From positions 56,553,676 through 56,617,675 of the forward strand of contig CM049316.1 in NCBI GenBank assembly GCA_026874595.1: DNA of 64,000 bases. Direction: 5' to 3'. Positions within the stretch are counted from its first letter, which is position 1. The number at the start of each line of letters is the position of its first letter. Below are positions 2,612 to 47,729 of the stretch, piece after piece. The stretch is from Sipunculus nudus. Taxonomy: Eukaryota > Annelida > Sipuncula > Golfingiida > Sipunculidae. The notes under the pieces were generated by a model, which did no database searches, was not told where the DNA came from, and was given only the letters and a program-made list of their open reading frames with translations. The position numbers and the translations under genes are program-made.

Positions 2612-2773
2612 ATGGCGGCCAAAAATGCTGCGTCACAGAAAGCCCTTTATCATAACTTAATGAAAGTGAATCGGGTTGAACTAATGTTGAGCATAGATCC
2701 TGTGGATAGTCTCCTGTTGGATCGTCTTTATGGTTACCGGGCGATCACGAGAGCGGAGTATGATAAGTGGAAG
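2612..2773 (+). CDS. NLR exon 1: first half of CARD
   Basis: Fifty-four codons from ATG in a good context (ccatcATGG) to donor AAG|GTTAGT at 2774. The translation has the amphipathic pattern of CARD helices 1-3, with ALYHNLMKVNRVELMLSI and LLLDRLYGYRAITRAEYDKW. It ends exactly in phase 0, matching exon 2. Alone it would give a 60-residue frame, but the CARD fold is completed only by joining the next exon. Confidence 0.82.
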
Positions 2774-2829
2774 GTTAGTATTATTTGTAAATGAGCTGGT
2801 ATCGTTATGCACAGACCATATTAGAATAT

Positions 2830-2916
<87 letters not shown>

Positions 2917-5900
2917 AATAGCTGAAGTAAGATATTTTTTGTTATTGTTTCGACGTATAAATGTTTGTTTTGTACGAGACATCTGTAAGTTATTAATTTA
3001 ATTGAAGTTGGGTCAGAGAAAGAAAAAGATGCATAAATATTTAGATTCATAAAACAAACTGAAATCGAAACAATTCATTACATTAAGCATTTAAATCAGG
3101 TTTTATCATTGGCATTAGTTTAATCATTTGTTTGCTGTCAAGCCTTTTTGTTGATTGTGACACCAGGAAGTGATATGAAGTCAGCCCCAAAGCCAAGGTC
3201 TAACTATTGATTTACTAGCCTGTGTTTCAGAAACCTCAACATGTAGGACACGCGCTGGTTGCTCACGGTAGGCTTTTTTTCAGTTCCAAGATAAGAGCAA
3301 TATAAACAAACACAAACGGGTCAAACGACCAAGTGGCACAATAAGGACGCTTACTACATGACACAGCATTATAAATGTGTTAACTGCAGGCTACATGTTA
3401 TCAGGTCTTGCATGAAAACAATTTAGGAGTGTTGAGCTCACTCACTCAGTCTTCATCAGGAGTGTAATATTTGTTATCATGTCCTATTGTCCTAATAGTT
3501 ATCTCATTAACTCATAATATTGAATGTGGGATGGGGTTTTTAATGTGGGTCTTAGGTCTTAAAGTCACTATTCACCTGTCTTATTTATAGAATTTTATTG
3601 ATACTGGCTAACTCTGCATATACATATTAAAGAAGTGAAGGTAATCCTTGCTGGGAAAGGTTCTTATAACGCCACTTTGAAGTATAAACATTAAATCTAC
3701 AGGCTACTTGTACACAAGGTACTTGAGCCAGTGTTAATATATACAGATAAATACATGTAACCGTGTTATTGAAAGATCCCTAGTTGACGTTCGTTAGAGC
3801 ATGGGAAGCAATGCAATATTTGTCATCAACAGAACTCTGTACTCTCTGAATTGAAGCCAGATGCCACGTGCCGCCGTCTGCAGCTTACTCTGACATACTA
3901 TCGACAGGACAAACATGTCAATAAAACTTGTTAGACTATAGCACGAGCAGTTGCTAAGATACACAGTAGCACGCATAACTTTATATATGCAATGTATCTG
4001 TCATTTTTTAAAAACGTCAAAAATTAGGATAAGCTAAATTCGATAATTCAAATAATTTACATATCATAAATTCAATAACTTAACACGATCCATGCTTATT
4101 CCATGACCCTTTTTCTAATTAACCAGATGTGTCGGAACGACACGAATACCCCCGACGGCAGAAAATTAAAAATATTTTTTTTTTTGAATGGTGGAGCATA
4201 AATTGTTACAGATGTCTGTTTTATTGTGCGCTGTTGACGTTCTGATTCGTGTTGGGCTCAAGCCCCGGGCGTTGCTATGCTACAGCGTTTCTTGTTCTAG
4301 CTGGCAGGGTGCGGCCTACGTGGGAACTCTACACAGCGCTAGGTTTATCTGTGCCGTGTGAACCCTGACATGTAGAAACACAGCGTTCCTGGTTCTAGTT
4401 TGTTCTTTGTGTACTGTTTATTATGTTAGGTTCTTTAGATTGTTCGGGAAATGGAAAGTTATTGACTCGAGGTGAAAAGTTATAAATAAGGGGCTGTGTT
4501 TTACAGCCGGGAGAGAGGAGAGATATATTCCTGCGGACACAGAATAGTGTAAGTCAGTTTGTGGACCTTTTCCTGTAATTGCGGCAGTTTTAGCTTTTCT
4601 TCGAATTTTTAACGGATTTTATTTAGTCTTCAGTTTACCTTTGGGATTACTATCAGAACTTCACTTCTGAATTACAACAAATTGATTTTGTGATTGAACT
4701 AGACTGTTATTCTCTGAGAAGATTTATGTGAACTATTCATCTGGATTAAATGCTTTAAAGGGCTTTTTGTCGCTATCGCAGTGGTGGTATCCAGGTACTG
4801 TACACTTTATTTTATATACTTGTATTGACTGTTGCACTGTTGTTATACTGTGTAATTATATTGATTTAGTGTATTGTAATGTTAGGATTGTTTTAAGAAT
4901 AAATTATAATTATTTGTTAACAAAAAACCACTGACTTCTTTATTCATTCCCCTAGACATTTCACGCTGCCTAGTGTTTCAGATTCTGATTTTTTTTTATC
5001 TTCGTAACAAAATTTATGCTCGTCACGACTACGTGATCTGTTGATATTAGGTTCCGTAACATAAAATTGTGGGCTCGTCTGGGAGGCTTCATAGTTTTGG
5101 AAATTTATTAGGCCAGGGCCTAGACACATTGTTTACAATACATTGTTTACAAAATTTCACATTGTTTACGTTACATTGTTTACAAGATTCAACTAAGTGT
5201 TTTTTTGTTGTTGTTTTAACATCTTAACATGGCAGATTTCAAACCTGAGTCATTTGTTGAAGATTCCGACTCTGATCAACTTGAACAGTTGACAAAAGAA
5301 CAGTTGTTGCGTTTGGGACAACACTTAGGGCTAGGAGTGAAAAAAGCTATGAGAAAGCCTGATATCATTGCTAAAATCATGCAAGATCTTGTTAGCAAAG
5401 GTTTAATTGAAGAGAGTGTAATGGATACATAAACTAGTGGCCCATGAGCTTTGACGCTCAGCTGAAATCAAGGAATGTTGAACAATGAGAAAGATGACTG
5501 CCAGAGGGCCAGAAAATCATGAATTTTATGAAGAGGACTTAGAAATGTCTGGTTTACGAGAAAACTCTCCAAGACGTATTGACAAAGCAAATTTCAGACC
5601 AATATCTTGATCCATTCCTGAGATATGAGCAGTTTTCCCCAAAAGCACATGTATGTATGGACGCCAGAGGAAAACGATTGCAGATGTTGCGCCACCATCT
5701 TTAGTGCAAGCTGGAGCAGGCCAAGATCTATGGAAATGCACAATTTGAGGCCAATACGGCACACAATTCCTAAGAAAAGAAAATTAATTTATTCTATAGA
5801 AACAGGAAGGTAGGGGGTGTCTCCTGTCTGGTTTACGAGAAAATTTTCCAAGATGGATAGACATGCAAAATTTCAGACCAATACCTTGAACCACTCCTGA

Positions 5901-8900
5901 GATATGAGCAATTTTCACCCAAAGCAGATGTACGGATGGATGCCACAGGAAAATGATTTCAGGTGGCTGCACCAGTCTTGAGTAAAAGATGGAGGAGTCC
6001 AAGATCTATGAATATGGACAATTTCAGGCAAATATGGCAAGTCACTCCTGAGAAAAGGGCATTCATTTTTTCTACAAAACCGGATCGCGCCATAAGTCTG
6101 GTTTACCAGGAAACTTTCCAAGATGGATGGACATGCCAAATTTCAGACCAATATCTTGATTCATTCCTGAGATATGAGCAATTTTCACCAAAAGCGATTA
6201 TAATGATGAATGCCACGCAAAAATGACTGCAGATGGCGCCACCAGTCTTGTTTATGAGATGTAGGTGTTGAGGATCTATGAACATGCACAATTTACCCCG
6301 CAAAAAGTATTTTAGGTGGCGCCACCAGTTGCAGTTAGGAGATAGAGAGATCCAAGATGGATGGACCTGCAAATTTTCAGCACAATACAATGAGCCACTC
6401 CTTAGATATTGGCTTTTATCTAAAAGACACCGAGATTCATACTGCACAGAAAGATTGCCGATGGTACCATCTGTCTTTGTTAGGCACAAAAACATAGGTG
6501 AAGGAACAACTATGCTAGGTTTTTGGAAAGATCAGTCCAAGGGTCTCAGAGGAGTTTTCTTGAAACTAATGCAGAGTTTCTGTATCACATTTTTAATTAT
6601 TCTGGGGGGTACTTAGCGAGAAGGATATGGGTAACATAGACCGTATTTCAGATTTACATAGAGACTTTTCATGGACCTCCCTTGATGTCAAGTTAGAAGA
6701 TTCGAGGTCCAGCAGTTACGATTTGTGCCCTGTTAACAGATGATAGCTTCTTTGAAGGTATCATAGATAAAGAAAAAAAATCGTAACATTAGAAAAATAC
6801 AGGTGGCGCCACCAGTTTGCAGGAACTGACGGAACACTCCATGATATATATTCATCCAATGAATCCTGGTGATCAAGGCAGCAGTTATTCAGATACTAAA
6901 CTTTTTGTATAATTTTTTTTTATTATTCTGGGGGGTACTTCGGAGACCCATAGCTCGTAGAATACGGGTAACAGAGACCTAATTTCAGGTTTCCAAGGAG
7001 ATTTTTCATGGACCTCCCTGGATGACAAGTTAGAAGATTCCAGGTCCAGTGGTTACGATTTGTGCCCTGTTGTGCCCGGACGGACGGACACCGGACAAAG
7101 GGTGATCGCTATAGCTCAGATGACTTTCAGTCAGCTGAGCTAAAAGATGACAGCCTTGCTATGCAGTTGGAATTAAAAAAGTTAGAAATGCAACATGAAC
7201 TAGCATTAAAACAATTAGAATTCGAAAAACAAAGAGAACAGAGGGAAGAACATAAAAGGTTAAACAGTTAGAATTACAAAAAGAAAAACAAAGAGAAGAG
7301 AGGGAATTAGAAAAACAAAAAGAAATAGAAAGAGAAAGACTAGAAAAAGAAAAAGAAATTGAGTTAAAACGACTGGAGATAGAAAGACTTAAACTAGAAC
7401 ATAGTCTAAGTGCTGCCCAAACTCACAGTTTTGATGTTACTTAACACATTAGACTGGTCCCACCTTTTCAAGAAAAAGAGGTTGATAAATACTTCTTACA
7501 CTTTGAGAAGGTAGCTGAAAATTTAAAATGGCCTAAGGAAAATTGGACCATGCTATTACAAAGTGTATTGACTGGCAAGGCCAGAGAAATTTATACAGAG
7601 CTTTCATTAGAAGCCGCTGCTGACTATGACCAGGTTAAACGGTTAATCCTAAAAGGTTATGAGTCCCGAAGGCTTACTGCTAGAAATTCAGAAATTGGGA
7701 AAAGCGCAAATAACGTCCTATGTCGAATTTGCCAGGACAAAAGAGCAATTGTTTGATCGCCGGTATAGTTCTAAAAATGAAATGAAAGATAATGACAATT
7801 TGCGCCAGTTGATTTTGCTTGAAGAATTCAAGCGCTACATTAACAGATGTTAAAACTTTTCTGGATGAGAAAAGTCCCGAAACACTTGACATTGCTGCTC
7901 AATTAGCTGATGATTATTCATTAACACACAAAATGTCCATTACTATCAAATCAAACCAGTCATTCACAAACAAGAATGTAAATCAGTATGGCCAAAAGAA
8001 GTTTAAAGCGCAGTCACCCAGTACTAGTGGTCCTGATAGTTCGGCAAAGTCTATTGCTACACCTAAGTCCACGTCCACTGTGTCTTAATCCAACCAAGGC
8101 CAGTCATTTTCAAGGAAAATCTGTAATTACTGCATAAAGGAAGGTCATCTAATATCTGACTGCTGGAAACTTGTAAATAAACCAAAGAGTAAACCTTCTG
8201 GTTTTGTTTCAAAATCTATGCATAGCATAGTACAAGGGCCAGGCTCTTTTCATATAAATAAGGGGCACAACTCCTTTATTAACTCTTATAAAGGCTAGGT
8301 CCTTTCAAGACTCCTGCGAGGAATATCCTTTAAATAAGGCTAAGTCCTTTTATGACTCTTGCGAGAGTATTTCAAATGATGCCAGGTCCTCTTATGACAA
8401 ACAGAAGTTTATTTCTGCTGAGGAAAATTCCTCTGTTGACTCTAATGAGGAGTTTGATTGTAATAAGGATGTAGATTCCTTTAATGACTCTGAAAAAGAG
8501 TTTATGACTGACACTATCAGTGTCAGTTCTTTGTTTAATGAAACTGAGGTAGTAATTTCCTCTCCTGACTCCGAAATTGAGTTATTTGAGCCATTCATAC
8601 ATGATGGTTTTGTATCACTTTCAAGTGATTTTTCGGATTCTAACCCTATTAGAATTTTGAGGGACACTTTACCATTTAAGGGAATTCAGTTGCTGCTAGG
8701 AAATGATGTTGCAGGTGACAAAGTACAGCCTGTACCAAGAGTGACAGAAAAGCCGTCACTTGATCAGGAGACTGATCCTGAAAGTCAGGAAATTCCTGGT
8801 TTGTATCCTTCATGTGCTGTTCCTAGATCTATGACCAAGAAAAACACACATGAGGATAATGGTCCAGATAATAACACTCCTGGAGTCACTAGTGACTTGT

Positions 8901-11900
8901 CTATCGACTCCCCCGTACAGGATGCAGCATTTTCAAGGTCAGAACTTATCGCAGAACAGCATAAGGACCCTGATATTTCATGTTTGGTTCCTAGGGCAGT
9001 TTCTACAGATGATCTGTCACAGAACCCAGTTTGTTTCTATGTTAAAATGGAGTGCTTATGCGTAAATGGCGACCACCTGATGTATGCGCTGATGATGAGT
9101 GGGCCATCCAACATCAAATAGTAATGCCCAAAACCTTTCGCAATGAAATTCTAAGCATAGCACATGAGGCTTCTTTGTCTGGCCATTTAGGTATAAATAA
9201 AACCTACCAGAAAGTTAGTACACACTTCTATTACCCTTACCTCAGGACAGATGTTGTACAATACTGTAAATAAGTGGTGGGCCGATCATCGAGTTTTATC
9301 GAAAGTCAGTCGGTTTGCTGCCACTTTCAAGCGCTCGATTACCAAAGGCAACTATCGATTACATCATAATAATGATGGTATTCTTTCCAGAATGCCTTTA
9401 TGTTAAAGGCAATATTTATTTTTCAATTTTTTACCACATTCCGCGCTTTATATAATGAGTCTGTGTTCCCAAATAACTTCCATATGTAACTGAGTATGAC
9501 ACGGTATATAGATGAGAGAACGGAGGACTTATGAAAATTATTATTTGTGAACTCGCGGGGAGCAGCAGAATTAGCCGAGAGTTTTCATACGAGATGTAGA
9601 CTGCAAAATATGGGCGGGAAGGCGTTAAAATACTCCATAAAATTTTCAAGGTCTATGCCAATTTGCGAGATTCTCTTAGAAACATTCTATTCAACCGATG
9701 CCAAGTGCCGCTGTTTAGGCCGTCCTTAAAAAAAAATCTTTGTTGGGGCTAACCCGGCCGGTCGAGTATTTGGATTTCAGCTGGAATTTTATTTTGGACT
9801 AGTCTGCAATTTTTTTTGGAATGATCTGCCCAAAGCGCACCTGGGCCCGTAAAATCTGCCTTCATGGGATAGAAAAACAGCCCCTCTATAGGCCTAACAT
9901 TCTTAGACGCTCTTAATTGAAAGATATTACCCGTCGTTAAATTTGATCCTTAAATTAGTCTGATTGTCTTTATACGTGGAAGGATCGTTACACTCGTGCG
10001 CGAGAGGACAATACCTGCCGGGGAAACGCAGATACAGTTTCACAGATAATTGCATATTTCTTTGATAATTGCATATGTTTGTCTGAACCGATTAATAATC
10101 GATCATCAGTCGGTTTGCTCAAACCGATGATCGACTATGAAAAAGGAACCGACTCCCACCACTACTGTAAATCATGCCACACATGCCAGATGGTAGGCAA
10201 GCCCAATCAGAATCCTTCTAAAGCCCCACTTAGACCTTTTTTCTGCTTTCGAGGAACCATTTAGTAGGGTTATTGTTGATTTTGTTGGACCACTGCCCAA
10301 AACAAAATCTTGACATGAATACTTGCTGACAATTATGTGCGCATCTACCAGGTTCCCTGAGGCAATACCATTGCGCAGAATTAATGCCAAGAGTGTTGTC
10401 AAGGCTCTTACCAAGTTTTTTACAACTTTTTGATTACCAAAATCCGTCCAGTCTGACCAAGGGTCTAATTTTAAGTCTGGCTTATTCCAGCAAGTTATGA
10501 TTGAGCTAGGTATAAAACAGTACAGCTCTTCGCAATATCATCCTGAAAGTCAGGGCGCCCTCGAGTGTTTTCACCAGACACTAAAAAACATGATCAGGAC
10601 CAATTGTTATGACACAGAAAGACTGGGATGAAGGAATCCACCTGTTGCTGTTTGCTGCCAGAGAATCCTTTCAAGAGTCCTTGGGTTTCAGTCCCTTTGA
10701 ACTAGTTTTTGGGCACTCAGTTCGCGGTCCATTAAAAACTGTTTGAAGAAAAAATCGTGTGAAAATCCTGATTTTCTTAGTTTGTTACAGTATGTTTCAT
10801 ACTTTTGCACTAAACTACACAAGGCGTGTGAGATTGCAAAGTCTAATCTTAAATCTGCAGAAAGTAAAATGAAACCAAAATATGACAAGCCCACTGTAAG
10901 CAGGACGTTTGGGCCAGGTGAAAAGGTCCTTGCCTTATTTCCCATCCCTGGCAGACCTCTGCAAGCTAGGTATTTTGGTCCTTACATTGTTGACAAGAAA
11001 GTCAGTGATTTAAATTACATACTGTTGACACGAGATAGACGTAAGAAGAAACAACTGTGCCATGTTATTATGTTGAAACCATATTATGACAAAAATAGCA
11101 CATCAGATGACGTACAAAATGTTACTGCTGTTAATTGTGTAAAAACTGACCCTGAACAAATTAAAGTAGATACTGACTGTAAGTGTGATGTAAACATTCA
11201 GTGTGGAACACTACCACTAAAAAACTCAGACGTGCTTAACAACCTGGATGCCAAACTGTCACACCTCACTGCACAACAACAACAAGACCTCAAGAACCTG
11301 CTGCGGAATTATGAACATTTGCTTAGTGACATTCCAACGCGAACTAACATATTGTGCCATGACGTCGATGTTGGCGAGGCAAGCGCAGTCAAGCAGCATC
11401 CTTATAGACTGAATCCAGAAAAGCAAAAGTATCCACAAGATGAGATTCAATATTTGCTGGACAATTATTTTATTGAACCTAGTAACAGTAACTTCAGTTC
11501 ACCATGTATTCTTGTGCCAAAACCTGATGGAATTAAGTTACTGTATGTGCACAGATTATCCAAAACTGAACTCTGTCACCTAGACTGACACGTTCCCGAT
11601 TCCGAGGATCGATGATTGTATTAATAGAATCGGTAGCTGAAGATAGGTCTTCAAGTTTGACTTGCTAAAAGGATTCTGGCAAGTTCCGCTGACAGAACGG
11701 GCGAAAGAAGTGTCCGCATTTGTGACGCCGCAAGGACTGTACCAGTATAAAGTTATGCCGTTTGGCATGAAGAACTCGCCAGCCACGTATCATGCAGCGC
11801 CTCATCCATATGGTTGTCAAGGACACTCAGGGCTGCGACGCATATATTTATGACCTCATCGTGTACAGTGACACCTGGGAGAAACATCTGCAAATTCTTC

Positions 11901-14900
11901 GCGACCTCTTCGAAAGACTCAGTGAAGCACGTCTTACCTTCAGTTAAATCTGAGTTTTGTCACGCACAAGTAACATTTTTGGGTCATATTGTAGAACAGG
12001 GTCAAGTAAAACCTGTTGATGCTGAAATAAGTTCTATTTCTGCATTTCCTAGACCAGAAAACAAAAAGCAAATAGTGCGTTTTCTTGGTATGGTTGGATA
12101 CTACAGGAAGTTTTGTACATTTTTTTCTGCTGTAGCTGAACCTTTGACTAATTTGTTAAAGAAGAAACAAACGTTTGTATGGAATGTTCAGTGTGAAAAT
12201 GCTTTTCAGAATTTGAAAGCAATTCTGCAAAGTTCACCAATTTTGGTAGCTCCAGACTTTTCTGTACCTTTAAAGTTAGCTGTAGATGCTAGTGATACTG
12301 CTGCTGGTGCTGTGTCGTTACAAGAAGGCAGTGATGGCATAGATCATCCAATTTGTTATTTTTTCAAGAAAGTTTAATGCAAACAAGAAAAACTATTCCA
12401 CTATTGAAAAAGAATGTTTGGGTTTGATTTTGGCATTGCAACATTTTGAAGTTTATGTTACTTCATCAGTCAAGCCTGTCGTTGTCTTCAGTGATCACAA
12501 TCCTCTCACGTTGATGAACAAGAAGAAAAGATTGTTGAGATGGAGAATGTTTTTACAGGATTACAATCTTGAAATCAGACACATGAAAGGGAAGGACAAT
12601 GTACTTTTAGATTGCTTATCGAGATGTTTATGACATGTTGTAAACGAGATGTTTATGTAGTGTTGTAAATAAGATGTTCTTGAGATGTTGTAAAGATTTA
12701 TTGATTGCGATCGAGAAAACTTTCTTTTTTCTTACAGGAGGGGGAGTGTTACAGATGTCTGTTTTATTGTTCGCTGTTGACATTCTGATTTGTGTTTGGC
12801 TCAAGCCCCGGGCGTTGCTATGCTACAGCGTTCCTTGTTCTAGCTGGCCGGGCGCGGCCCACGTGGGAACTCTACACAGCGCTCGGATTAATCTGTGCCG
12901 TGTGAACACTTACATGAAGAAACACAGCGTTCCTTGTTCGAGTTTGATCTTTGGGGCGTGTGTACTGTGTATTATGTTAGGTTCTTTAGAGTGTTCGGGA
13001 AATGGAAAGTTCTTGGCTTGAGGTGAAAAGTTATAAATACGGGGCTGTGTTTTAGAGCCGGGAGAGAGGGGACAGATATTCCAGCGGACACAGAAGGATG
13101 TAAGTCATTTTGTGAAACTTTCCCTGTAATTGCGGCAATTATAACTTTTCTTCGAATTTGTAAAGGATTTTAATTAGTCTTCAGTTTGCCTTTGGGATCA
13201 CTATCAGAACTTCACTTTTGGATTACAACAAATTGATTTTGTGATTGAACTGGACTGTTATTCTCTGAGAAGATTTATATGAACTATTCATCTGGATTAT
13301 ATGCTTTAAAGGACTTTTTGTCGCTGTGACAGTGGCGGTATCCATGTACTGTACACTTTATTTTATATACTTGTATTGATTGACTGTTGTACTGTTGTTA
13401 TACTGTGTAATTGTATTGATTTAGTGTATTGTAATGTTAGGATTGTTTTAAGAATAAATTATAATTATTTGTTAACAAAAAAACACTGACTTCTTTATTC
13501 ATTCCCCTAGACATTTCACGCTGCCTAGTGTTACAGAATCTGATTTCTTTTATCTCAATAACAAAATTTATGCTCTTAGAATAACCGCTGTTGTAACCTT
13601 AAAAATTGCGTCAAGTTCATCCTTTTTCGAACCTGACCTAGCCCTTGATAAGGTGCATTAACGCTGCAAGTTTGGTGACTGTATCTCAAATTATGTTTGA
13701 GTTATTATGTTAACATCATTTTTGCATTATCGCCGCTGTGACCTTGAAAAATGCGTTAAGGTCATCCATGTTCGAGCTTAACTTAGCCCTTGATAAGGTG
13801 CATCAATGCTGCAAGTTTGGTGGCTGCTTCTCAAACTCTTTGAGTTATTGCGTTTACATTATATTAGCATTATCGCCGCTGTGACTTTGTGAACACGGGA
13901 CGCTCACCAGGAAAATCATGCCGTCGGAAGAAGGTCAGCCTAGATGAAACGCGAACTCGATCTGTAACTGGTCATTATCAAACCACACATCGAAAATCAG
14001 TTCAATATCTGCAGACATTGAAGAAGATGTCCGTACAAGTGAATTTTTCATGAAATCTTCTATGTTCAGGAGCCGTCTTTCCGGCAAATGTAGGTCAGCC
14101 GGGACGAAACACAAACTCGATCTGTAACTTGTCATCATCCATAAAAAAAAAACAGTGCCCTATTACTCACAGATTATAGGCCAGTGTATCATAATTTCGG
14201 TTTTGCTTGGAAAATTTCCCATTGACCTCTCTTGATGTCTACAAAGAAGTATCTAGTTTGAGTGTGTACGATTTGTGTCCTCTAATTAGACGACCGGATG
14301 AACAGATGGATAGACGACGGGACAAAGGACAATCGCTATTCTTGTTAGTTAATTCCTAGTAATTTACCAACTGCTACGTGCAGAAATAGTCCTGGAGGAC
14401 AATGACATAATCTGAAAAATGGCTCCTCGGGTTCGGAAAGGGGCGTGGGGGGGGAGCGGCTAAAACTGGTCTTAAACGCTTAAAAAAGATTGAGGCTGCC
14501 AACAAGGGGACGGGGGGGGGGGGTGGGGGGGGAGGGGGGTTCTGGACTCCTTGGACCCCTCAGCTGAATCCGCTTTTGACCGCCATCAAGGAGGCTGTGT
14601 ATGTTGGCGCCGCTCCGCCCAGTAGTTTAAACTTGTCTTGCACACGGGAAGACAAGCATTGGGACAAATGTTTGGACATATGAGAGCGGTTATGTGAGCC
14701 AGATTTTCGCCAAGACAGTTATATTTGACAAGGCTCCCCTGGTGGTAGCCTACATAAAAGCTCCCAGTATGACCAGTAGTGGAATGAAATGGACTGGTAG
14801 GAATGGAATGAGACCACTGCGTAAGGAGTATATGACCCAGCCTGAACCTTGATGCTCCGGTGGAAGTAACGAAACTTCCCATCCGGTGTCAAGAAAATTT

Positions 14901-17900
14901 GCAAACCGCATTAAATTGAATTTTTTATTTCTGTTTCAGCGAAAAGATTTAGCAAACCATGAGATAGTAGGAATGTTGCTAGATCGCTTCGAGAAGCATT
15001 CCATGACACACATCAACTTTCTCCTGTCAGCTTTACGGGTCACTGGTCAGCAGGAGGTAGTTGATGAATACCTTACCCCAGCAGGTGCATATTTTTAAAA
15101 TGGACTTTATTTTGTTTTGTAACATTTTGAACTATTTAAAAAGGTATGCTATTTTAAGCACTCAGTGAGATACCTTTTGGTCGACTTACATTAAACTACA
15201 TGACAATGTCTCAAAGATGTTACTTTTTTGTTTTTCCTCTATTGTGTGTCTTTCTTGTTTGCAAAATATGCAAAATATTTAATTTTTTACTGAATAAAAA
15301 TGTCAGTTTTGGGTAGACAGAAATATGTGATATCATGTTGTGAAGTAAAGTATTTTTAAAGCCCTAATATACATTTGTAATTTCATACCTCTTTGCTATA
15401 CCCCCACATGATATGATTGGCACTTCATTTGTTTGAGAAGCTTGTTTAAGGTAGATGTCATTTGATCTCTGAAAGAAGAGAGAGAGTCTTTCTCACATAG
15501 GTCCTCAAATTCATTACGTTACATGTTTAAATTGTACAGTAAATATAAACATATTTATCATTTTAATGGTCCTTTCAGGTAAATCTCATAATGAGGGAAT
15601 CACATTATTTAGAGCCACATGAGGTAGATATCGTCATTGTTCCAGCAAGGTCTTATTATTGGTTAGGCAAAGAATAATCAGTCCTGATATTCTGTATTTT
15701 TTATTTTTTCTAAGCTGCCCGCTCTGACGTCAAAGTTGATGTCCAACAACTACAGGAGAAGATAACAGACTATCTACTTGGGACATTTACAAAAATTGAC
15801 CATTGGACCAGACAAGACAGACACCTATGGGGAAACGTAGGAGAAGAGTATGTGCCTTTGACGCTGTGTCACAGTGGAAAAGAGAAAATTAAAAAATTAG
15901 AAGACTACACAGAAATATTTAACCAGGTATGTATAATGCTTAAATAATATTAAAACGTAAAATTTAATGTTATGCATATTTTAAGTTTTATGCTTATATT
16001 TTATTATTTAATTTTGAAATAATGAATTTTAAATAAGCCATCTTAGGTGCTGACCTTATTTGCACAAGAGTTATGTGCCTTTAGGGAAAATAATACACAT
16101 GCATTTGATCTACCTGCATTGCTCTTTTGTCAAGTATTCCTGTATGTCAATTTATTTTTCACTCCCTTTAAATCATTCTGATAATATACCCCTTAAGAAT
16201 ATCCAAGTGCTTTTTTCATTATGTATTATCTGAATAAAAAGTGAATTCATTTAGCAAAGAAAAAGTGGACATTATTATTACGTGCATACTCATCATCCGC
16301 TGTGATTCCTAAAAAAGGATTCCCCCTTGACATTCACTTGTTATATAGACAAAAAAATTCCCCCTTGACATTCTCCTGTCATATAGACTATTTTCATTTT
16401 GGTCCAGTATTTTTAACGAATCGACGCATAGTATGACACGTAATGTATGAATGCACATTTTCTTTTGTAGACACCCGAAAACACCAGATCATATCGAATT
16501 ATAGTGCATGGTGACGCCGGGGCGGGGAAAACGACTTTACTGAAGAAAATAGCGTATGACTGGTGTCATGTAAAAAGAGGCACACACCATGAAATGAAAT
16601 CGGACAAAGTATCCTTTTTTCAATCATTTGAAATCCTTTTATCCTTGACCTTACGTCTTGTTAAACCAGGCGTGTCAATGATGGAAACCCTTCAAATGCT
16701 GCTTCCATGCTTGAATGAAGACGACATAGCTTACATTCTTTTCTTGCTTGAACATTCTCCTGAAAATATCCTCATATTGTGTGATGGTTATGATGAAATG
16801 ATGAAAGGGACGCCAAGCGAAGTAGAAAAAATGGTGTATAATGTTTTGTGGAACAAGGTGTGTTGTGTAACAACGACACGCTCACACTCACTGTCAGAAC
16901 TCTCTAAATCATGTGACACACTGATACAGGTAAAAGGGTTTACAAACGAACAAGTAAAAATATTTGTTGATAAATCCTTTGCACACATTGAAGGAGACAG
17001 GACAGCAAATGATATGTGGAAAGACCTGAGTCAAAATAAACCTGTAGAAACTTTGGCCTGCATTCCAGTTATCCTGTATTTCATGTGTTTAGTATACGCA
17101 GATCAAGGAAAACTTGGAAACAGCATAGCGGAACTTTACACTGGAATTATTGAAGTACTTTTAAGCCGCTACGAACAGAAAAGGTTCGATTTTGAAAAAA
17201 GGGGGAACTCTGCCGATGTCCTATCAAGAAATCACGGTATTTTGATGAATCTAGGGGAGCTGGCAAAGAAGCGAGACGACAATGGTAATCTGTGCCGTGT
17301 ATATAGCAACGCTGAAGTTATGCGTGTGTTAGGAGAAGACAAAGAAGAGCTTGGAATTCTCCAGAAGGAGTTCCCCTCAAATGCTCTGCAAGAAAGCCAT
17401 TGGACATTCATCCATGGGTCAGTTCAGGAATATATCTATGCATACTACCTGTGTTACGCCAAACAAAACCATTTGTTTGAGGAACTGGCTTCATTTAGCT
17501 TTATTCGTCTGTCCACAGACACAAGTAACACAGATATGGGCTGGTCGAATCTAGTTCATGGAGAACTGGACGAGGCAGTCATTGTAGCCAGAAGAGACAA
17601 CACTATAAACTTCCTGTGTGGTCTTAATAACGAATATGCCAATAAAGTAATACAACAAGTTGTAACGGATAAAAAACTGGATAATGCAACGAATGTAGCT
17701 TGCATTCTTACCCGGTTGTATCAAGACTACTCGGAGAAACATAATTGTAAAATCCCGTTACCGTCGGACTTCCGAGTCGTTACGAGTTTCGACCCCCTGA
17801 CTGCTCTCTGGAAACTTTTCATACTGGACCTTGCAAAGAACCAGCAAAATATTCACACGTTAAGACTTGACTGTTTGTCATCAGACCAGTTGAACTTTAT

Positions 17901-19101
17901 ACCACAATATCTTTGTCATCTGCATGTCCGAACAGACCATTTAACTTCAGATATGTCCAGAATGATAAATACCTTGAAAAATCTGAAAGAGTTGCGGATT
18001 ATGGCTGATAAATTCGACAGTCTCGGTGGTTACCCGTTCTCTGAACTAAAAGTGCTTGAATCCCTAGAAATATTAGATTTTCCTACAGAGCAGAGCAGGA
18101 AAATAGTTCCAAACGGTTTTGTGAAGGCTCTGACTTTCCACAAGAATCTCACAAAGCTTTTATTATCGAATTGCTGCAATGCAACCACACTGACAGATGT
18201 CATCACAAGGCAAAATCAGCTGCCATCTTTACACTCACTTACTCTGAATGGGAGCAAATTGGAAGGTGGATCGGTTGTGTGTGAACTCATTCAGGCATTC
18301 ACTCATCTCCGCCTGCTTTCCATTGACAGATGTGGAATAGACTTATCTAGTGTGGCAGGGAGTCTCAGGAACTGTAATTCCCGATTAGATGAGTTGTTTT
18401 GTTCATACAATCGGGTCTCTTCGGGAACCGGATTAGCAGAGCTTCTTCATAAGCTTTCACGCTTAACCAAAATCTGCATCATCTCGTGCAGCCTCACTGC
18501 CAAGAGTTTTAGTGAGTTCATCAAAGCACTTGATTTGTATGGGCAGATGTCTACGATAAAGTATCTAGACCTTTGTATGAATCCCTTGGTGAGTGGAGTA
18601 GCTCCGCATTTTGCCATGCTTCTTCCACTTTTTCCTAGACTTGAGCGACTGGGCTTAGGAAAATGCCAAATAGACCACTTTTCTTTCATACATCTTCTTA
18701 AGGGCTGGTCAAAAAGGCGTCACGTGCTCAAGTGTCTGAATATTTGCAGTAACAACCTCACCAATGACTCCGTCCTTGAACTGATTAAGTATAGCAAAGC
18801 GGGAACCATAAAGGCGGAATTAGAAATACTATCTCTCGCTGGCAACTCCCAGATAACAGATGGTGTAAGTATATGGAACATCTGTCAGTACAATCCAGGC
18901 TTGAAATTTTTAAACATATTTGGATGTACGTTTAGAAACTTTCCCTTTGATCGTTTTTTCTTTCATCAGTTTAGTCAAAAACCACCCGCATCTGCCGACC
19001 AAACAGATGAATTAAACATAACAGCAGATGCAGACTTGGGTCTTCAGTGGGTAAAATTAAACATGAGGATTAGTAACACATCTGTACAAATTACATCTTA
19101 A
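2612..19101 (+). CDS. CARD-NACHT-LRR receptor (NLR-type), four exons
   Basis: Gene model: exons 2612-2773, 14940-15084, 15715-15926 and 16471-19101. Every junction has GT-AG borders and phases match, giving 3150 nt (1049 residues plus stop). Domain order: CARD-like death fold (about residues 5-100), a linker (about 103-175), a NACHT NTPase with Walker A GDAGAGKTT and Walker B ILILCDGYDE, then winged-helix-like sequence and leucine-rich repeats to the C-terminus. By family knowledge such proteins are cytosolic pattern sensors that oligomerise through NACHT and recruit partners by CARD; the ligand is unknown. The start is fixed by an in-frame TAA at 2597-2599. There are no internal stops. A related NACHT pseudogene lies at 45260-47130. 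Intron 1 (12166 bp) carries a decayed retrotransposon. Family call is strong; expression is inferred only from the intact frame. Confidence 0.88.
2832..2913. repeat. Compound (TA)n(GA)n microsatellite
   Basis: A TA run passes directly into a GA run, about 60 bp inside NLR intron 1. Confidence 0.95.
2914..4122 (+). other. NLR intron 1, left part: nothing recognised
   Basis: AT-rich non-coding intron sequence with no ORF, RNA gene or repeat that I can support. Confidence 0.5.
4123..4203 (+). mobile_element. Head fragment of a Helitron-like repeat
   Basis: It starts ccagatgtgtcggaacgaca and closely matches the head of the element at 60615. It stops abruptly at the 5' LTR, so the LTR element probably landed in it; the candidate remainder is at 13576-14345. 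Confidence 0.5.
4204..5061 (+). repeat. 5' LTR
   Basis: It begins TGTTACAG. Similarity to the 3' LTR runs to 5021; the next terminus compatible with TG...CA is ccgtaaca ending at 5061, eight bases before a candidate primer-binding site. An alternative end is cgtaaca at 5009. The LTR would hold promoter and polyadenylation signals, which I could not locate precisely. Confidence 0.8.
5070..5085 (+). promoter_or_regulatory. Candidate tRNA primer-binding site
   Basis: tgggctcgtctgggag resembles the site complementary to the 3' end of tRNA-Pro used by several retroelements. It sits just downstream of the 5' LTR. A degenerate look-alike (tatgctcgtcacg) follows the alternative LTR end at 5009. Confidence 0.55.
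5229..8250 (+). pseudogene. gag of the LTR element, interrupted
   Basis: An N-terminal SAP-like segment (MADFKPESFVEDSDSDQ, then LTKEQLLRLGQHLGLGVKK) runs 5229-5432 and stops where another repeat is inserted. Gag resumes near 7146 with a Glu/Lys/Leu coiled-coil stretch, then a capsid-like region (RLVPPFQEKEVDKYFLHFEK at about 7448) and a zinc knuckle C-x2-C-x4-H-x4-C at 8122-8163. Stops at 7269 and 7442 and frame changes near 7665 and 7830 disable it. Gag proteins form the particle and bind the RNA; this copy cannot. Confidence 0.8.
5430..7145 (+). mobile_element. Non-autonomous repeat inserted in gag (family A, copy 1)
   Basis: Starts ctagtggcccatgagc and ends tcagctgagctaaaa. Subterminal inverted repeats gctcagctga (about 5449) and tcagctgagc (about 7133) frame it. 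Inside are about three ~270-bp units starting with ctggtttacgagaaa (near 5550, 5828, 6097), then a section with ggtggcgccacc and gttacgatttgtgccctg and a terminal ggacaaagggtgatcgctat. A second full copy is at 53806-55090 and a minus-strand copy at 35320-37190. No coding capacity. Ends CTAA after a hairpin, as Helitron-like elements do; assignment tentative. Confidence 0.75.
8390..9060 (+). pseudogene. Linker and protease remnant of pol
   Basis: An open frame (8504-9121) rich in Ser, Asp and Glu. It contains ILRDT, which resembles the aspartic protease active-site D-T, followed almost at once by GIQLLLGNDVAGDKV, which normally closes the protease region. The body of the protease therefore appears deleted in frame. 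The frame then runs toward the integrase zinc-binding region. Function in the parent element: cleavage of the polyprotein. Confidence 0.6.
9060..11100 (+). pseudogene. Integrase (pol), split by a hAT-type element
   Basis: The HHCC zinc-binding region begins near 9165 (HEASLSGHLGINKTYQKV), is cut at 9271, and resumes after 10172 with SCHTCQMVGKPNQ. Core pieces follow: DFVGPLPK (about 10278), SDQGSNFKSGLF (about 10455) and QYHPESQGALECFHQTLK, consistent with a DDE core. The C-terminal GPY/F module (ARYFGPYIVDKKVSDLNYIL, about 10960-11020) is in the 10743-11588 frame. Frame breaks near 10263, 10430 and 10740 make it non-functional. It lies upstream of reverse transcriptase. Confidence 0.85.
9272..10164. 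mobile_element. Non-autonomous hAT-type DNA transposon
   Basis: 893 bp flanked by an exact 8-bp duplication ctgtaaat (9264-9271 and 10165-10172). Terminal inverted repeats of about 10 bp: aagtggtggg at the left, cccaccacta at the right (one mismatch at the outermost base). The terminal sequence (agtggtgggccgatcatcga) and 8-bp target duplication fit hAT elements. A strong internal hairpin with tcggttt/aaaccga arms lies near 10096-10139. No transposase is encoded. Confidence 0.9.
11200..12632 (+). pseudogene. Reverse transcriptase and RNase H (pol)
   Basis: The RT N-terminus (YRLNPEKQKYPQDEIQYLLD, about 11400; PCILVPKPDG, about 11504) ends at 11586. A second piece carries LLKGFWQVPLTERAKE and KVMPFGMKNSPATYH (about 11660-11790). 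The active-site motif at 11843-11854 reads YIYD rather than YxDD, so the first catalytic Asp is lost. A stop at 11945 follows. The connection (FLGHIVEQGQVKPVD, FLGMVGYYRKF) and RNase H (LAVDASDTAAGAV, SDHNPLTLM, EIRHMKGKDNV) extend to 12632 with another frame break near 12375. Confidence 0.88.
12736..12746 (+). promoter_or_regulatory. Polypurine tract
   Basis: aggagggggag lies directly against the 3' LTR, the expected place for the plus-strand DNA primer. Confidence 0.85.
12747..13575 (+). repeat. 3' LTR
   Basis: Begins tgttacagatgtctgtttta as in the 5' LTR and stays collinear to aaatttatgctc at 13575, where similarity stops about 40 bp short of the proposed 5' LTR end. It is either truncated or marks the true LTR end near 13563. 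Confidence 0.85.
13576..14345 (+). mobile_element. Tandem-repeat-bearing repeat remnant
   Basis: About two ~145-bp units carry ccttgataaggtgcat and ctgcaagtttggtg (13580-13885). Two units of a second repeat follow (13930-14140: gaaacgcgaactcgatctgt, ctatgttcaggagccgtc), the same monomer as the 60750-61515 array. A tail with gggacaaaggacaatcgcta (about 14318) resembles the end of family A. It is probably the right part of the element whose head is at 4123. Confidence 0.6.
14346..14939 (+). other. NLR intron 1, right part
   Basis: Holds a G-rich tract (about 14508-14540) and otherwise unremarkable sequence up to the acceptor tttctgtttcag. Confidence 0.5.
14940..15084 (+). CDS. NLR exon 2: second half of CARD
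   Basis: 145 nt after acceptor ctgtttcag, ending at donor GCAG|GTGCAT, entering in phase 0 and leaving in phase 1. The translation (ANHEIVGMLLDRFEKHSM, then INFLLSALRVTGQQEVVDEY) matches the usual last helices of a CARD, with the F/L-x-x-x-L-R-x-T-G-Q pattern typical of the family. Confidence 0.82.
15085..15714 (+). other. NLR intron 2
   Basis: 630-bp AT-rich intron, GT-AG, without recognised features. Confidence 0.7.
15715..15926 (+). CDS. NLR exon 3: CARD-NACHT linker
   Basis: 212 nt between acceptor tttttctaag and donor CAG|GTATGT; phase 1 in, phase 0 out. The predicted 70 residues are charged (VDVQQLQEKITDYLLGTF, EEYVPLTLCHSGKEKIKKL) and resemble the pre-NACHT segment in which a Y-V-P-L motif precedes the NTPase. 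No separate domain recognised. Confidence 0.75.
15927..16470 (+). other. NLR intron 3
   Basis: 544-bp AT-rich intron with a short tandem duplication near 16317-16388 (attcccccttgacattc present twice). Ends at acceptor tcttttgtag. Confidence 0.7.
16471..19101 (+). CDS. NLR exon 4: NACHT NTPase and leucine-rich repeats
   Basis: 876 codons open to a TAA at 19099-19101. The P-loop GDAGAGKTTLLKK is near 16513. Walker B is ILILCDGYDEMM, with the extra acidic residues usual in NACHT. A sensor-like stretch CCVTTTRSHSL follows. A winged-helix-like region includes FPSNALQESHWTFIHGSVQE; the H-x-S-x-Q-E-Y pattern is common in animal NLRs. From about 17850 leucine-rich repeats appear (LTKLLLSNCCN, LKCLNICSNNLTNDSV, LEILSLAGNSQITDG) and run nearly to the C-terminus. 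No transmembrane segment is seen. Confidence 0.92.
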   Translation, partial: TPENTRSYRIIVHGDAGAGKTTLLKKIAYDWCHVKRGTHHEMKSDKVSFFQSFEILLSLTLRLVKPGVSMMETLQMLLPCLNEDDIAYILFLLEHSPENILILCDGYDEMMKGTPSEVEKMVYNVLWNKVCCVTTTRSHSLSELSKSCDTLIQVKGFTNEQVKIFVDKSFAHIEGDRTANDMWKDLSQNKPVETLACIPVILYFMCLVYADQGKLGNSIAELYTGIIEVLLSRYEQKRFDFEKRGNSADVLSRNHGILMNLGELAKKRDDNGNLCRVYSNAEVMRVLGEDKEELGILQKEFPSNALQESHWTFIHGSVQEYIYAYYLCYAKQNHLFEELASFSFIRLSTDTSNTDMGWSNLVHGELDEAVIVARRDNTINFLCGLNNEYANKVIQQVVTDKKLDNATNVACILTRLYQDYSEKHNCKIPLPSDFRVVTSFDPLTALWKLFILDLAKNQQNIHTLRLDCLSSDQLNFIPQYLCHLHVRTDHLTSDMSRMINTLKNLKELRIMADKFDSLGGYPFSELKVLESLEILDFPTEQSRKIVPNGFVKALTFHKNLTKLLLSNCCNATTLTDVITRQNQLPSLHSLTLNGSKLEGGSVVCELIQAFTHLRLLSIDRCGIDLSSVAGSLRNCNSRLDELFCSYNRVSSGTGLAELLHKLSRLTKICIISCSLTAKSFSEFIKALDLYGQMSTIKYLDLCMNPLVSGVAPHFAMLLPLFPRLERLGLGKCQIDHFSFIHLLKGWSKRRHVLKCLNICSNNLTNDSVLELIKYSKAGTIKAELEILSLAGNSQITDGVSIWNICQYNPGLKFLNIFGCTFRNFPFDRFFFHQFSQKPPASADQTDELNITADADLGLQWVKLNMRISNTSVQITS

Positions 19102-28690: not shown

Positions 28691-29567
28691 AACTTGGGCC
28701 TTTATTTTAACCATACACGAGTATTTGATCACTAACTAACACTCTGCAATGAAGCATAACTCAGCGACCACCAGTGGCGGAGAACACAACAGTTGGTGAG
28801 ATCATGGACTGTGACCGGTGTAGATAAGACATCTGACCACACGTAGTTTATTACGCTATCCATAATCAAAACTTTTTGAACTACGTGATATTCGCTCACA
28901 TGAAGAAAGCCCCCTTCCGTTCGATGATAAGTTCCCCGATCGATAACTTGTAAATTTGGACAGAATATGATCCTACTACAAACATCCAAAATTTATGTGG
29001 CATTTAAGGAAATTAAAAAGAACATTGCAACATGCTCCGCAAAATAATATTTTTCTTGTATTTCCGGGAGACTCTGATCGTCGCACCATCATGTTTTGTA
29101 ACTGCGTGAAACAAACACGTCGTTACGTGCTGCATCCTAGACAAACGCGTCAAAACTTGGGACTCCTTGAATACATGGACACAACACATGCTTATTAATT
29201 TTAACACAATAGGTTGACGTAATAGGGGTGAAAACAAAATGTTTCAATCTCATAAAGGGCCAAATTAGAGCGACATTGTATCGCCCAGCAAGGTCCTTCG
29301 AATTGTGTCCATCTACAAAGAAATCACACGGGAACGTTCAAGGTACACGCACAGTGTTCAAGCAAATATCTTTTTCTCTGTCCCAGGACGACCTCACATT
29401 TTGGCAGTTCATGATCGTTTAATTCATGTTTACACATGATGACAAAATATTATACCAAGATAATTAATACCGATCAAGGGAACTACATGGTTACAGTTAT
29501 ACGTGTCATCCTCATGGAGCCAGGTATGCTGACTGTTGTTCAGATTTCATAGTTCGACAATAAGAAA
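28690..29567. other. Upstream of NXPE-like gene
   Basis: Non-repetitive sequence. Short frames on both strands show no family I recognise. It probably contains the promoter and 5' UTR of the gene at 29568, but no motif can be fixed. Confidence 0.4.
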
Positions 29568-37190: not shown

Positions 37191-38620
37191 TGTATCACTA
37201 TAGAAGCGTAATATGAATGGTTTCTTCCCATTTTCTCCTGAAATAGGGATTCAAACGACTGTGACTTGAGCTAATATGCATGAACTATCTTAATTAGTTG
37301 CCTGTGCAAGGATATATTGTCAACATGACAGTCGGCTGTGCGTCATGACCCATGGGTAACTTGTTTTTTTTTTTCATATTTTGAATTATCTCATACGAAT
37401 TCAAGGCAAGGCAAGGTAATATTATTTACGCAGGCAGTCGGCGGAATAGCTCCTGCAATCTTATGGCCAGAAAGGTTATACTGCCTCACTTGTATGAAAA
37501 ATAATCCCACGGGTACTGGGACGGACTATAGTTAGAATTCCTTTAGTATAGTAGGGAGTAAATTATAACCATAGGAGACGGGAAAAAAACACTTAGACAA
37601 TTGAAGAAGGTTTTCATATACATACTGCAGATATTAGGCTTTAATTACTGATGAAAATTCATAGTTAGTCCTTCCCATATGCTGCCACAGCTGAAGCTGC
37701 TGCTATGTTTACCTGTGTATTATAAGAATTAAACAACATATGCAGGATCACAATAATTATAGTTTTCTTTTTCAGAGAAATCATAAATGGGAATTACAAG
37801 GTAGTTGGAATGCTACTCGACATCTCTGATAAGAATCACATATGAAACATTTATCCTGTCTGTTGTCAGCGCTCATGAAAACTGACCAGCATAACATAAT
37901 TTACATCTATCCAGTCAGCTATAAGTGTGTTTTTTTAAGTAAATAAAGGGTTCATATGACTGGTGCTTCGCATACAACATACATTTTCTTTGATACCAAG
38001 GTCCAAGACAATTGAAATTATTTAATATAACCTTTCATCTTACCATATGTAAATATATAAACAAGAGTAAAAAATTCAGTATAAGATTCTCATAATTTTA
38101 GTGTCCAAGATCTGAAGAAAAAATACGTTCCTCTCACAAAAAAAGCTGAGCGAATACGTCGAGACTTTCCTGCAGTTTTATACGTGAAGCAGAAAAATAA
38201 TTATTCATAAAGTTTATAAGATGCACGGAAGTATTATTGGGTATTCTTGAATATATTAGCATTAGTGCAGCAGATAGCTGAAACAATCTTTAAAATGGTG
38301 AGACAAGCACCAAATTTGGCAAAAATACTCCTTAGACTACGGGAGAGTTAAAAATTCACTTCTTAACCTTCGGCCGAACACCTTTTTATCATTTGTAGCA
38401 AAAAATGGTGAAAAAGTATATATAGACTAGGACATAATCAACGAAATATTGGAATTATTTGAATGTAAAACTGGAACTTTAAAAATTGTTTTTGGTGAAG
38501 GTAACCGTCTCCATTTTTTCTTTTGCTAGCTTAACTAAGCTATATACATCGACAAAATTCAATTCAAACAGTCCATACGAGGTTAGGCATGCCTGTCATC
38601 CAGATGAATTTAAATTGGGC
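37191..38620. other. Intergenic, no gene recognised
   Basis: 37445-37535 is a dispersed repeat similar to 21780-21900. The remainder is AT-rich without a supported feature. Confidence 0.5.
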
Positions 38621-44830: not shown

Positions 44831-45259
44831 TATCTGCTGCACTACATCATAAAAAAGTTAAGGATTCGATCCTGAGTATTAAAAAGACAAGCTTGGAGCC
44901 GCAGAGGAAATTTCATAAATGAAGAAATTAGTGTGCATTGAGAAAGTGGCTTACGATGGATCAATCCAGAATGACATTTGTAATAAGCATATCTGACACT
45001 TTAAGTAGCACAAAATGATTGTTTTCGGGAATTCTGGAATTTTTACTCAAGTCACTATTAGAAAATATTCGAATATTTTCTAAAACATGGAATGAAAATT
45101 CATCTCATCACCTACGTGTTGACCGTCACAACACGTATTAACCTTTTTTAGTCTGTGGTATGCAATTATTAATGGTCAATTATTAATAATCATATTATAT
45201 TTTATCCTAAAATTCTTCATATACAAAAGAAGAAACGAAATCGCACATGATTATTATAA

Positions 45260-47130
45260 ATCCACGGGGAACAAGGTACTGGAAAGTCAACGCTGTTGAA
45301 GAAAATTATTTTTGACTGTTGCATGAAGAACAGTAGCCAATGTCACAACCAATTCCCGAACTTTTAAGCAATTGCAATCCTTCGACTTGGTTTTGCCTCT
45401 TGAATAGTGTGTAGTTGAACCAAATAACTCCATTCTAGATATTCTTAATAGCAGTTTCTATGCTTTGATAAAAATGACAGAGCAGCAGTTCTGTACATGA
45501 TTGAGAAATCCCCTTCAAATATTTTGTTTGTATGTGATGGATTTGATTAAGAAAACGTAAGGGAAACAAAACAAGTGGAAAAAATGATATACAATTCTCT
45601 GTGGAGCAAGAAATATTGTGTTACAACAATACGTTCACACTCTCTCTAGAGACTGGAAGCAGCCAGGGGTCCTAATGACAGAGAAATAGACAGATCTTTA
45701 TTTAATTATGTTGTCAAGGTGTTCATTAACATAGAACGCTTCTTTGATGGTTCAGCTGTCGACAAGGCGGCATTTATGTGGTCATTACTTCAGCAATATA
45801 CTGCCGGAAGGCAAAAGCCGTATATTTCTAACGTACATGTGCACAAATCAAATGGAAGGTTAAGGGAAATCATGACCGAACTTCTACACACATTGTAACT
45901 CTTACTAGGACGGTATGAGGCCAAAGAGTTTGGAGCAAAAGAACGGGTCACTCCAGCGACATTATTTTTAAACTTCATGATACCCTGATGTAGCTTGAAG
46001 AGCTAGCAAAAAAAAAAAAAAAAAAAAATACGCAAGGAAAACGGCGATTTGTGTTGTGTATATACTCATGAAGAAATATCTGCTGGGAAGATCTAAGAAT
46101 GCTGGGCTTCCTCTACAGAATATTCCTATCCATTCATCTCCAGCCCAGCTGCTGTAGCTTATCCATTGGCATGTCTAAGAATACATTGTCGCTGTCTGAA
46201 AATAGCCCCGATGTAGAGTTCTTAAATGAATTGTTCCTGTCTTTAATCATAGTTATGTGCCCGTTGTCACAAATATAGTGGTCCGTCTGGAAGTTTAATA
46301 TTCAGGAAAATTGATTGTAGTAACGAGAAGGCATAAAGTTGTCCATTTTTTGTGGACTTTTTGCTGAACTCGCCCATACAGTTAAAAAAAACCACTCATG
46401 TTTTTTGGTGAACAGGGACATTAGGAACGTGATAATTAAACATCTCTGTGCCAAAACTACCAAAGAAATACAGTTTACAAATTTCCATTGCTTACATCGT
46501 TATCGTTGATGGAAAATCATTGAAAAATAACTTATAGTAGCGAGATAATCCTTCTGATATTCAGAGGTTTCATAATCTGGTTATTAACAACCGGAGGCCT
46601 GCCATGTCAGTGTTCACGACAATGTCATATTCATCGCTGTAAAACTGGTTTCAACAATATATTCAAGATAACAGCTCTCTTGGGAAAAATTTAAAATTTT
46701 TACATCTGAGTATGTTTGCAGGCTTTCCAATAAGGGACGAGTACACTTTCCAATTACAGCATTTTCAGCATTTAACTTGAGAAATTGCGAATAACATCAA
46801 AACTTTTTCAAACATCATTTTTTTCAAACTAAATAACATCTCATCATGTCACATCACAGCGAATATCTTTAAAGAGCGTATGACTGGGCTACGGACAAAC
46901 ACTTGACTCGGAGGATCCTTATAACTTGATGTCTCGTCTGTGGCGATGCTCCCCACTTTTCCAGTGTTCCATTGGTTTTTCCTCAAATAAAATCGCTTGA
47001 TATTTCAGGTCACAGTGTTAACCACTGTCTAAGTCTTGATATGTCGAAAAATCATTTAAAAAATTCTCTCCGAGAATGGATATTGATAATGGATTTGAAA
47101 ATAAGAGCGTGCCGGGCCTGGGGATATTAG
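45260..47130 (+). pseudogene. NACHT-LRR pseudogene related to the intact NLR
   Basis: A P-loop (HGEQGTGKSTLLKK, from 45263) corresponds to HGDAGAGKTTLLKK in the intact receptor. Walker B survives as SNILFVCDGFD followed by a stop at about 45548, and then QVEKMIYNSLWSKKYCVTTI, collinear with the intact gene's EVEKMVYNVLWNKVCCVTTT. Later fragments match too: LLLGRYEAKEFGAKER (about 45900), an ELAKK codon run expanded to about 21 A's (46010-46030), and LRR-like CLSLDMSKNHLKNSLREW (about 47025). Many stops and frameshifts; no CARD seen upstream. Clearly dead. Confidence 0.82.
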
Positions 47131-47637: not shown

Positions 47638-47729
47638 TGTATGTATTTATAACAACATGAACGTACACCTTAAAACGGATATAGATTAACATAGTACAGA
47701 GTTAAAAGTACATAGTACAGAGTTAAAAG
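47131..47729. other. Spacer with (TA)n tract
   Basis: (TA)n at 47597-47632. Just before the LINE fragment, agtacatagtacagagttaaa-type sequence is duplicated (47692-47730). Confidence 0.6.

Follow-up and report, generated by a model that had tools for sequence, protein, structure and literature searches.

Among vertebrate NLRs, NOD2 carries two CARDs, and NAIP has BIR domains where a receptor of the NLRC type has its CARD. In molluscs, the accessible part of one report describes NLRC proteins of oyster and abalone, among others, with the classical CARD-NACHT-LRR order (PMC11508797). A second report, likewise in its accessible part, counts 218 NACHT genes for the pearl oyster, among which 19 have the death-NACHT-LRR architecture, and typically 5-20 NACHT genes in other molluscs (PMC9646362). 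The CARDs of oyster caspases are encoded by two exons, like those of vertebrate caspase-2 and -9, according to the portion of a third report that deals with them (PMC7836458).

The locus described here lies in a window of 64,000 nucleotides of Sipunculus nudus DNA. We consider it probable that its gene encodes an NLR of the NLRC type, an intracellular immune sensor, and is the sole intact member of a three-copy tandem array, and that the CARDs of the receptor engage an effector with a CARD of its own, most likely an initiator caspase. The gene and the element within its first intron comprise the following features.

2612..2773, + strand: exon 1, the ATG and first CARD half (aa 1-54), ending in phase 0; from splicing and frame, the candidate-exon control and the upstream copy
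14940..15084, + strand: exon 2, second CARD half (aa 55-102); from splicing and frame, Pfam on the joined exons and the upstream copy
15715..15926, + strand: exon 3, CARD-NACHT linker (aa 103-173); from splicing and frame, and matched in the upstream copy and in relatives on contig C7
16471..19101, + strand: exon 4, NACHT, helical domains and LRRs (aa 174-1049) and the stop; from Pfam, the structural model and the fold search
2774..14939, + strand: intron 1, 12166 bp, GT-AG, phase 0, dividing the CARD; shared in site and phase by the upstream copy
4204..13575, + strand: LTR retrotransposon in intron 1, 9372 bp, with broken internal frames; from direct repeats and Pfam matches of its frames

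Splicing in silico joins the four exons (162, 145, 212 and 2631 nt) into 3150 nt that encode 1049 aa and contain a sole, terminal stop, across introns of 12166, 630 and 544 bp with GT-AG at every junction. The start codon at 2612 is flanked by A at -3 and G at +4, and its frame is closed by a stop at 2597, 15 bp before the ATG. The frames of exon 3 and exon 4 each have a stop immediately upstream of their acceptors, and 29 open codons without an ATG precede exon 2. Given the base composition of this DNA, an 876-codon open frame has a chance probability of about 2e-27. In the predicted protein the CARD spans residues 15-96, the NACHT domain 182-345 and the LRR strands approximately 606-990. A preliminary description of this DNA had proposed four exons and a 1049-codon frame, which are borne out with identical coordinates, GT-AG throughout and one frame. 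Its 12,166-bp intron dividing the CARD has the length given, consisting of 2.8 kb plus a 9.4-kb LTR element, and its intact CARD-NACHT-LRR gene with a CARD divided by a long intron finds support in the CARD match that appears on joining the exons. The junction of exons 1 and 2 is the weakest step of the gene model, yet on sequence grounds it is well supported.

The NACHT domain is recognized by Pfam with an E-value of 1.5e-15 (57.9 bits against a cut-off of 26.7). An alignment of 18 NLR frames, drawn from 20 by excluding a short one (L003) and one whose longest frame lacks a P-loop (L064), contains 22 invariant columns that include Walker A and B residues; the two motifs occupy positions 187-194 and 273-282 of the protein, which possesses the NACHT with Walker A and B that is expected of an NLR. 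Exon 4 alone passes the LRR_4 Pfam threshold narrowly (27.3 bits against 27), and the whole protein scores 24.4, below the cut-off; NCBIfam contributed nothing of use for this exon. When exon 4 was modelled with AlphaFold on the 18-row alignment, the model (mean pLDDT 79.5, pTM 0.58) displayed about 15 strand units in the LRR region, spaced 20-31 residues apart. From these modelled strand units and the LRR_4 match on exon 4, the C-terminus is predicted to consist of leucine-rich repeats.

Comparison with known receptors places the gene among NLRs. Sequence matches of the protein in the PDB include NLRP6 (3.9e-8), NAIP (1.8e-5), NLRP7 (0.0016) and NLRC4 (0.0017), and NOD2 is absent from the eight matches at E<=1. 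A Foldseek search with the exon-4 model ranks NLRC4 first (4kxf, 5.8e-23; approximately 15% identity in the fold alignment) and returns NLRPs as well, with NOD2 at rank 15 (6.5e-21); the TM-scores are low despite strong E-values (TMq 0.26-0.56 among the best 50 rows). The preliminary description called the receptor 'NOD1/NOD2-type'. That name fits the domain order only, since CARD-NACHT-LRR is common to the gene and to NOD1/NOD2. These searches show no preference for NOD2 among NLRs: the fold search is led by NLRC4 and the sequence search by NLRP6 and NAIP. The gene described here encodes a single CARD. That description's further remark that complete NLRs are uncommon in molluscs is weakened by the CARD-NACHT-LRR proteins of oyster and abalone (PMC11508797) and the 19 death-NACHT-LRR genes of pearl oyster, although NACHT genes elsewhere typically number 5-20 (PMC9646362), as far as the accessible parts of these reports extend. 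Oyster CgNLRC (XP_011450878.1) and abalone NLRC share the order found here, a likeness drawn from the described order alone (PMC11508797, accessible part). The pearl oyster death-NACHT-LRR genes resemble it as three-part NLRs within a large NACHT set, but their N-terminus is described in the accessible text as Death (or DZIP3-like HEPN) and not CARD (PMC9646362). The oyster caspase-2-like CARDs are, in the portion available, similarly two-exon but part of a caspase, and the likeness is one of exon count (PMC7836458).

The CARD itself is reconstructed from two exons, neither of which alone yields a Pfam match for its CARD half. Joined (102 aa), they match Pfam CARD over residues 15-96 with an E-value of 2.4e-4 and 21.5 bits, slightly below the curated cut-off of 23.9. 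When relatives other than the C1 loci L057 and L059 were scanned, the CARDs of the upstream tandem copy (9.5e-7) and two C1 relatives (2.6e-9 and 2.7e-9) all scored above the cut-off, and that of a C3 relative scored at it. A profile built from six family members (the gene itself, its upstream copy, three C1 loci and one C3 locus) matched 29 PDB sequences, the best being BCL10 (2.3e-4), caspase-9 (3.7e-4) and RAIDD (5.1e-4). Judging by their names, 24 of the 29, including the 17 best, are presumably CARD-carrying proteins; the other five are two designed proteins, two U1A entries and dep1. Searched as a single sequence, the N-terminal 111 aa gave six PDB matches, none of them to a CARD. An N-terminal CARD of the kind that defines the NLRC type is supported by the paralogues above the Pfam cut-off and by the family profile's PDB matches, its own score lying below the cut-off. 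Codon comparisons of the CARD speak for constraint: they yield dN 0.39, dS 1.83 and dN/dS of about 0.21 against the upstream copy, and dN 0.62, dS 2.84 and dN/dS of about 0.22 against a C1 relative, with dS near saturation in both; exon-4 comparisons involving the gene are saturated.

The choice of exon 1 was examined with a candidate-exon control. Briefly, a profile HMM was prepared from four paralogue CARDs, the tested gene excluded, and 1098 candidate first exons (155 in-phase ATG...GT segments upstream and 943 from the minus strand or downstream) were joined to exon 2 and scored; the control covers ATG-started, phase-0 exons of 60-300 nt. The segment 2612-2773 ranks at the top with 94.9 bits, and its own shorter forms score 82.6, 67.8 and 61.7 bits. 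The decayed exon-2 relic listed below scores 59.5, the best unrelated candidate 54.2 and exon 2 alone 45.9 bits. On this ranking (94.9 versus 54.2 bits for the best unrelated candidate), exon 1 as a chance frame was rejected. Phase, the tandem copy and this control together support placing CARD and NACHT on one predicted transcript.

Three copies were found on contig C11, and the middle one alone is intact. The upstream copy, which lies outside the window, has the identical exon order, with exon 1 at C11:56534357, exon 2 at 56543782, exon 3 at 56544135 and exon 4 from 56544980. It is broken by a stop in exon 2 and by stops and frame changes in exon 4. Its CARD is divided at the identical site and in phase 0, with exons 1 and 2 9.3 kb apart. 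Identity to the intact gene is 46% over 41 aa in exon 1, 53-54% in exon 2, 47% in exon 3 and 46% in the NACHT of exon 4. The third copy is represented by relics within the window.

37789..37910, + strand: decayed exon-2 relic of the third tandem copy, two short matches in different frames
45224..46078, + strand: decayed NACHT relic of the third tandem copy, 31% identity, E 4.9e-21, 13 stops in the aligned frame
46933..47025, + strand: weak LRR fragment, E 0.12, which may belong to the third-copy relic

Inspection by eye places an intron at the same CARD site, and in the same phase, in CARD genes on C1 and C3 as well. Two intact exon-4 relatives on C7 (36% and 34% identity; frames of 893 and 889 codons) were recovered, the first with an exon-2-like CARD half upstream; the second has no CARD within its 10-kb stretch, and exon 1 of either was not found in the genomic stretches examined. 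The stretch C3:67623542-67628797 (L058 in part) combines a split CARD with, 5 kb downstream of it, a caspase-like match to C14 peptidases, in whose frame the stops may be introns or decay.

Intron 1 is long mainly because a retrotransposon inserted into it. Two direct repeats, each roughly 830 bp long and 91% identical to one another, occupy 4204-5021 and 12747-13575; a purine-rich tract precedes the second, and the frames between them match Integrase_p58_C and RT_RNaseH_2 in Pfam. On these sequence features the element is read as Ty3/gypsy-like; no clear target-site duplication appeared in the flanks inspected. Without the element the intron measures 2794 bp, and the view of a long intron as an unexplained oddity was rejected, the 9.4-kb element accounting for the bulk; we regard the intron as baggage that a retrotransposon has made longer. 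The corresponding intron of the upstream copy shares with it a single 40-bp match, and its length therefore has a separate cause. A tandem repeat (5547-6294, period 270, 2.7 copies) lies within the LTR element.

The genome searched (1.43 Gb, 153 contigs) contains at least 99 NACHT matches, each exceeding the cut-off (of 417 candidates, 98 were scored); two of the 99 listed are pieces of one frame, and the gene described here is absent from that list. Contig C17 holds 55 of them and none of the 26 Death domain matches in the genome; HEPN_DZIP3, a domain abundant in pearl oyster, has four matches. A search for a molluscan haemocyanin domain drew a blank, as did its controls. Ten further NACHT frames scanned with Pfam all carry NACHT over the cut-off, nine with an LRR-family match at E<=0.01 and four with LRR over the cut-off; these ten, of 19 outside the window, are not a random sample because they were chosen among top matches to the CARD-NACHT-LRR protein. 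No fewer than four loci have a CARD at most 40 kb ahead of a NACHT, with both on one strand: the intact gene and the pseudogene upstream of it, together with single loci on C7 and C15. This count is a lower bound because 150 of 650 CARD candidates were scored and an exon-wise search misses split CARDs; it draws on 124 NACHT places, which include some genes twice, and excludes repeated mobile-element CARD rows and most caspase rows. The best CARD match among those scored (1.5e-12; C15:49870944-49871183, L020) is a single exon; on the same strand, 11.8 kb further downstream, comes a NACHT frame of 906 aa that also has an LRR match (C15:49859151, L066). By adjacency only, this locus is a second CARD-NACHT-LRR candidate.

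By analogy with known NLRs, the LRRs would keep the NACHT domain closed and ADP-bound at rest, and a microbial or damage signal would free it. The NACHT would then bind ATP and oligomerise, and the CARDs, now clustered, would draw in an effector that has a CARD itself. This would most likely be an initiator caspase, bound directly, and it would trigger cell death or inflammatory signalling. CARD exons and C14-peptidase exons are both present in the genome. A more speculative proposal, which we regard as rather unlikely, gives the split-CARD NLRs (C11, C7) and the split-CARD genes (C1, C3; the C3 gene has a caspase-like match next to it) a common origin in a single CARD gene. Receptors and effectors would then both be encoded by one CARD lineage, and the NLR would engage the caspase directly, as an inflammasome that needs no ASC-like adaptor.

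Other readings of the locus were considered. The receptor may be real while its CARD recruits a RIPK2-like kinase instead of a caspase, leading to NF-kB signalling as in NOD1/NOD2; the shared domain order, the NOD2 fold match at rank 15 and the weak matches of the family profile to RIPK2 CARDs (E 0.31-0.39) are consistent with this, but the profile's best matches are to BCL10, caspase-9 and RAIDD, and we hold kinase recruitment to be doubtful. That 2612-2773 is not the true first exon, so that the transcript begins elsewhere and its CARD is incomplete or different, is highly improbable: a 12-kb, LTR-filled intron could hold another exon and the control is limited to ATG-started phase-0 exons, but the segment leads the best unrelated candidate by 40 bits at rank 1 of 1098, the tandem copy has the same two exons in the same order, site and phase, and a CARD match arises solely upon joining exons 1 and 2.

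The gene could also be dead in spite of its open frame, as a young copy that is not expressed, in an array that is decaying. In favour of this, the copies on either side of it are both broken and intron 1 has taken up a large LTR element, but all 1049 codons remain open with canonical splice sites although the copies are old, as the 46% NACHT identity to the upstream exon 4 indicates, and although the LTRs of the inserted element have already diverged by 9%. We regard this as improbable, and retain the reading of an intact NLRC-type receptor that probably signals through a CARD-bearing effector.

Novelty is small, in that the architecture and the split CARD both have precedents in the accessible parts of earlier reports (PMC11508797, PMC7836458). 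The locus provides a gene model, tested against controls, of a CARD-bearing NLR from a genome in which NACHT matches are numerous, points to a few loci (C11, C7, C15) where further CARD-bearing NLRs should be sought, and illustrates how tandem paralogues in genomic DNA can lend support to a CARD that a transposon-filled intron interrupts.

Elsewhere in the window, a 423-aa frame at 47727-48998 (+) contains a zf-RVT domain (7.4e-12) and is probably a LINE-type remnant. An open 548-aa frame at 29553-31199 (+) has no Pfam match at 0.01, and a hydrophobic stretch near its start resembles, by eye, a membrane anchor. CARD frames also occur in a dispersed, near-identical element with about 50 copies among the matches listed (L035-L049; e.g. 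C1:77780934, C5:42527003), where the frame is open for 230 aa; many copies have a 275-aa CARD frame approximately 3.4 kb away on the opposite strand. In copy L035 the first frame combines CARD (3.5e-8) and RING (1.5e-10), and two weak CARD frames adjoin it. This may be a mobile element or endogenous virus with captured host CARDs.
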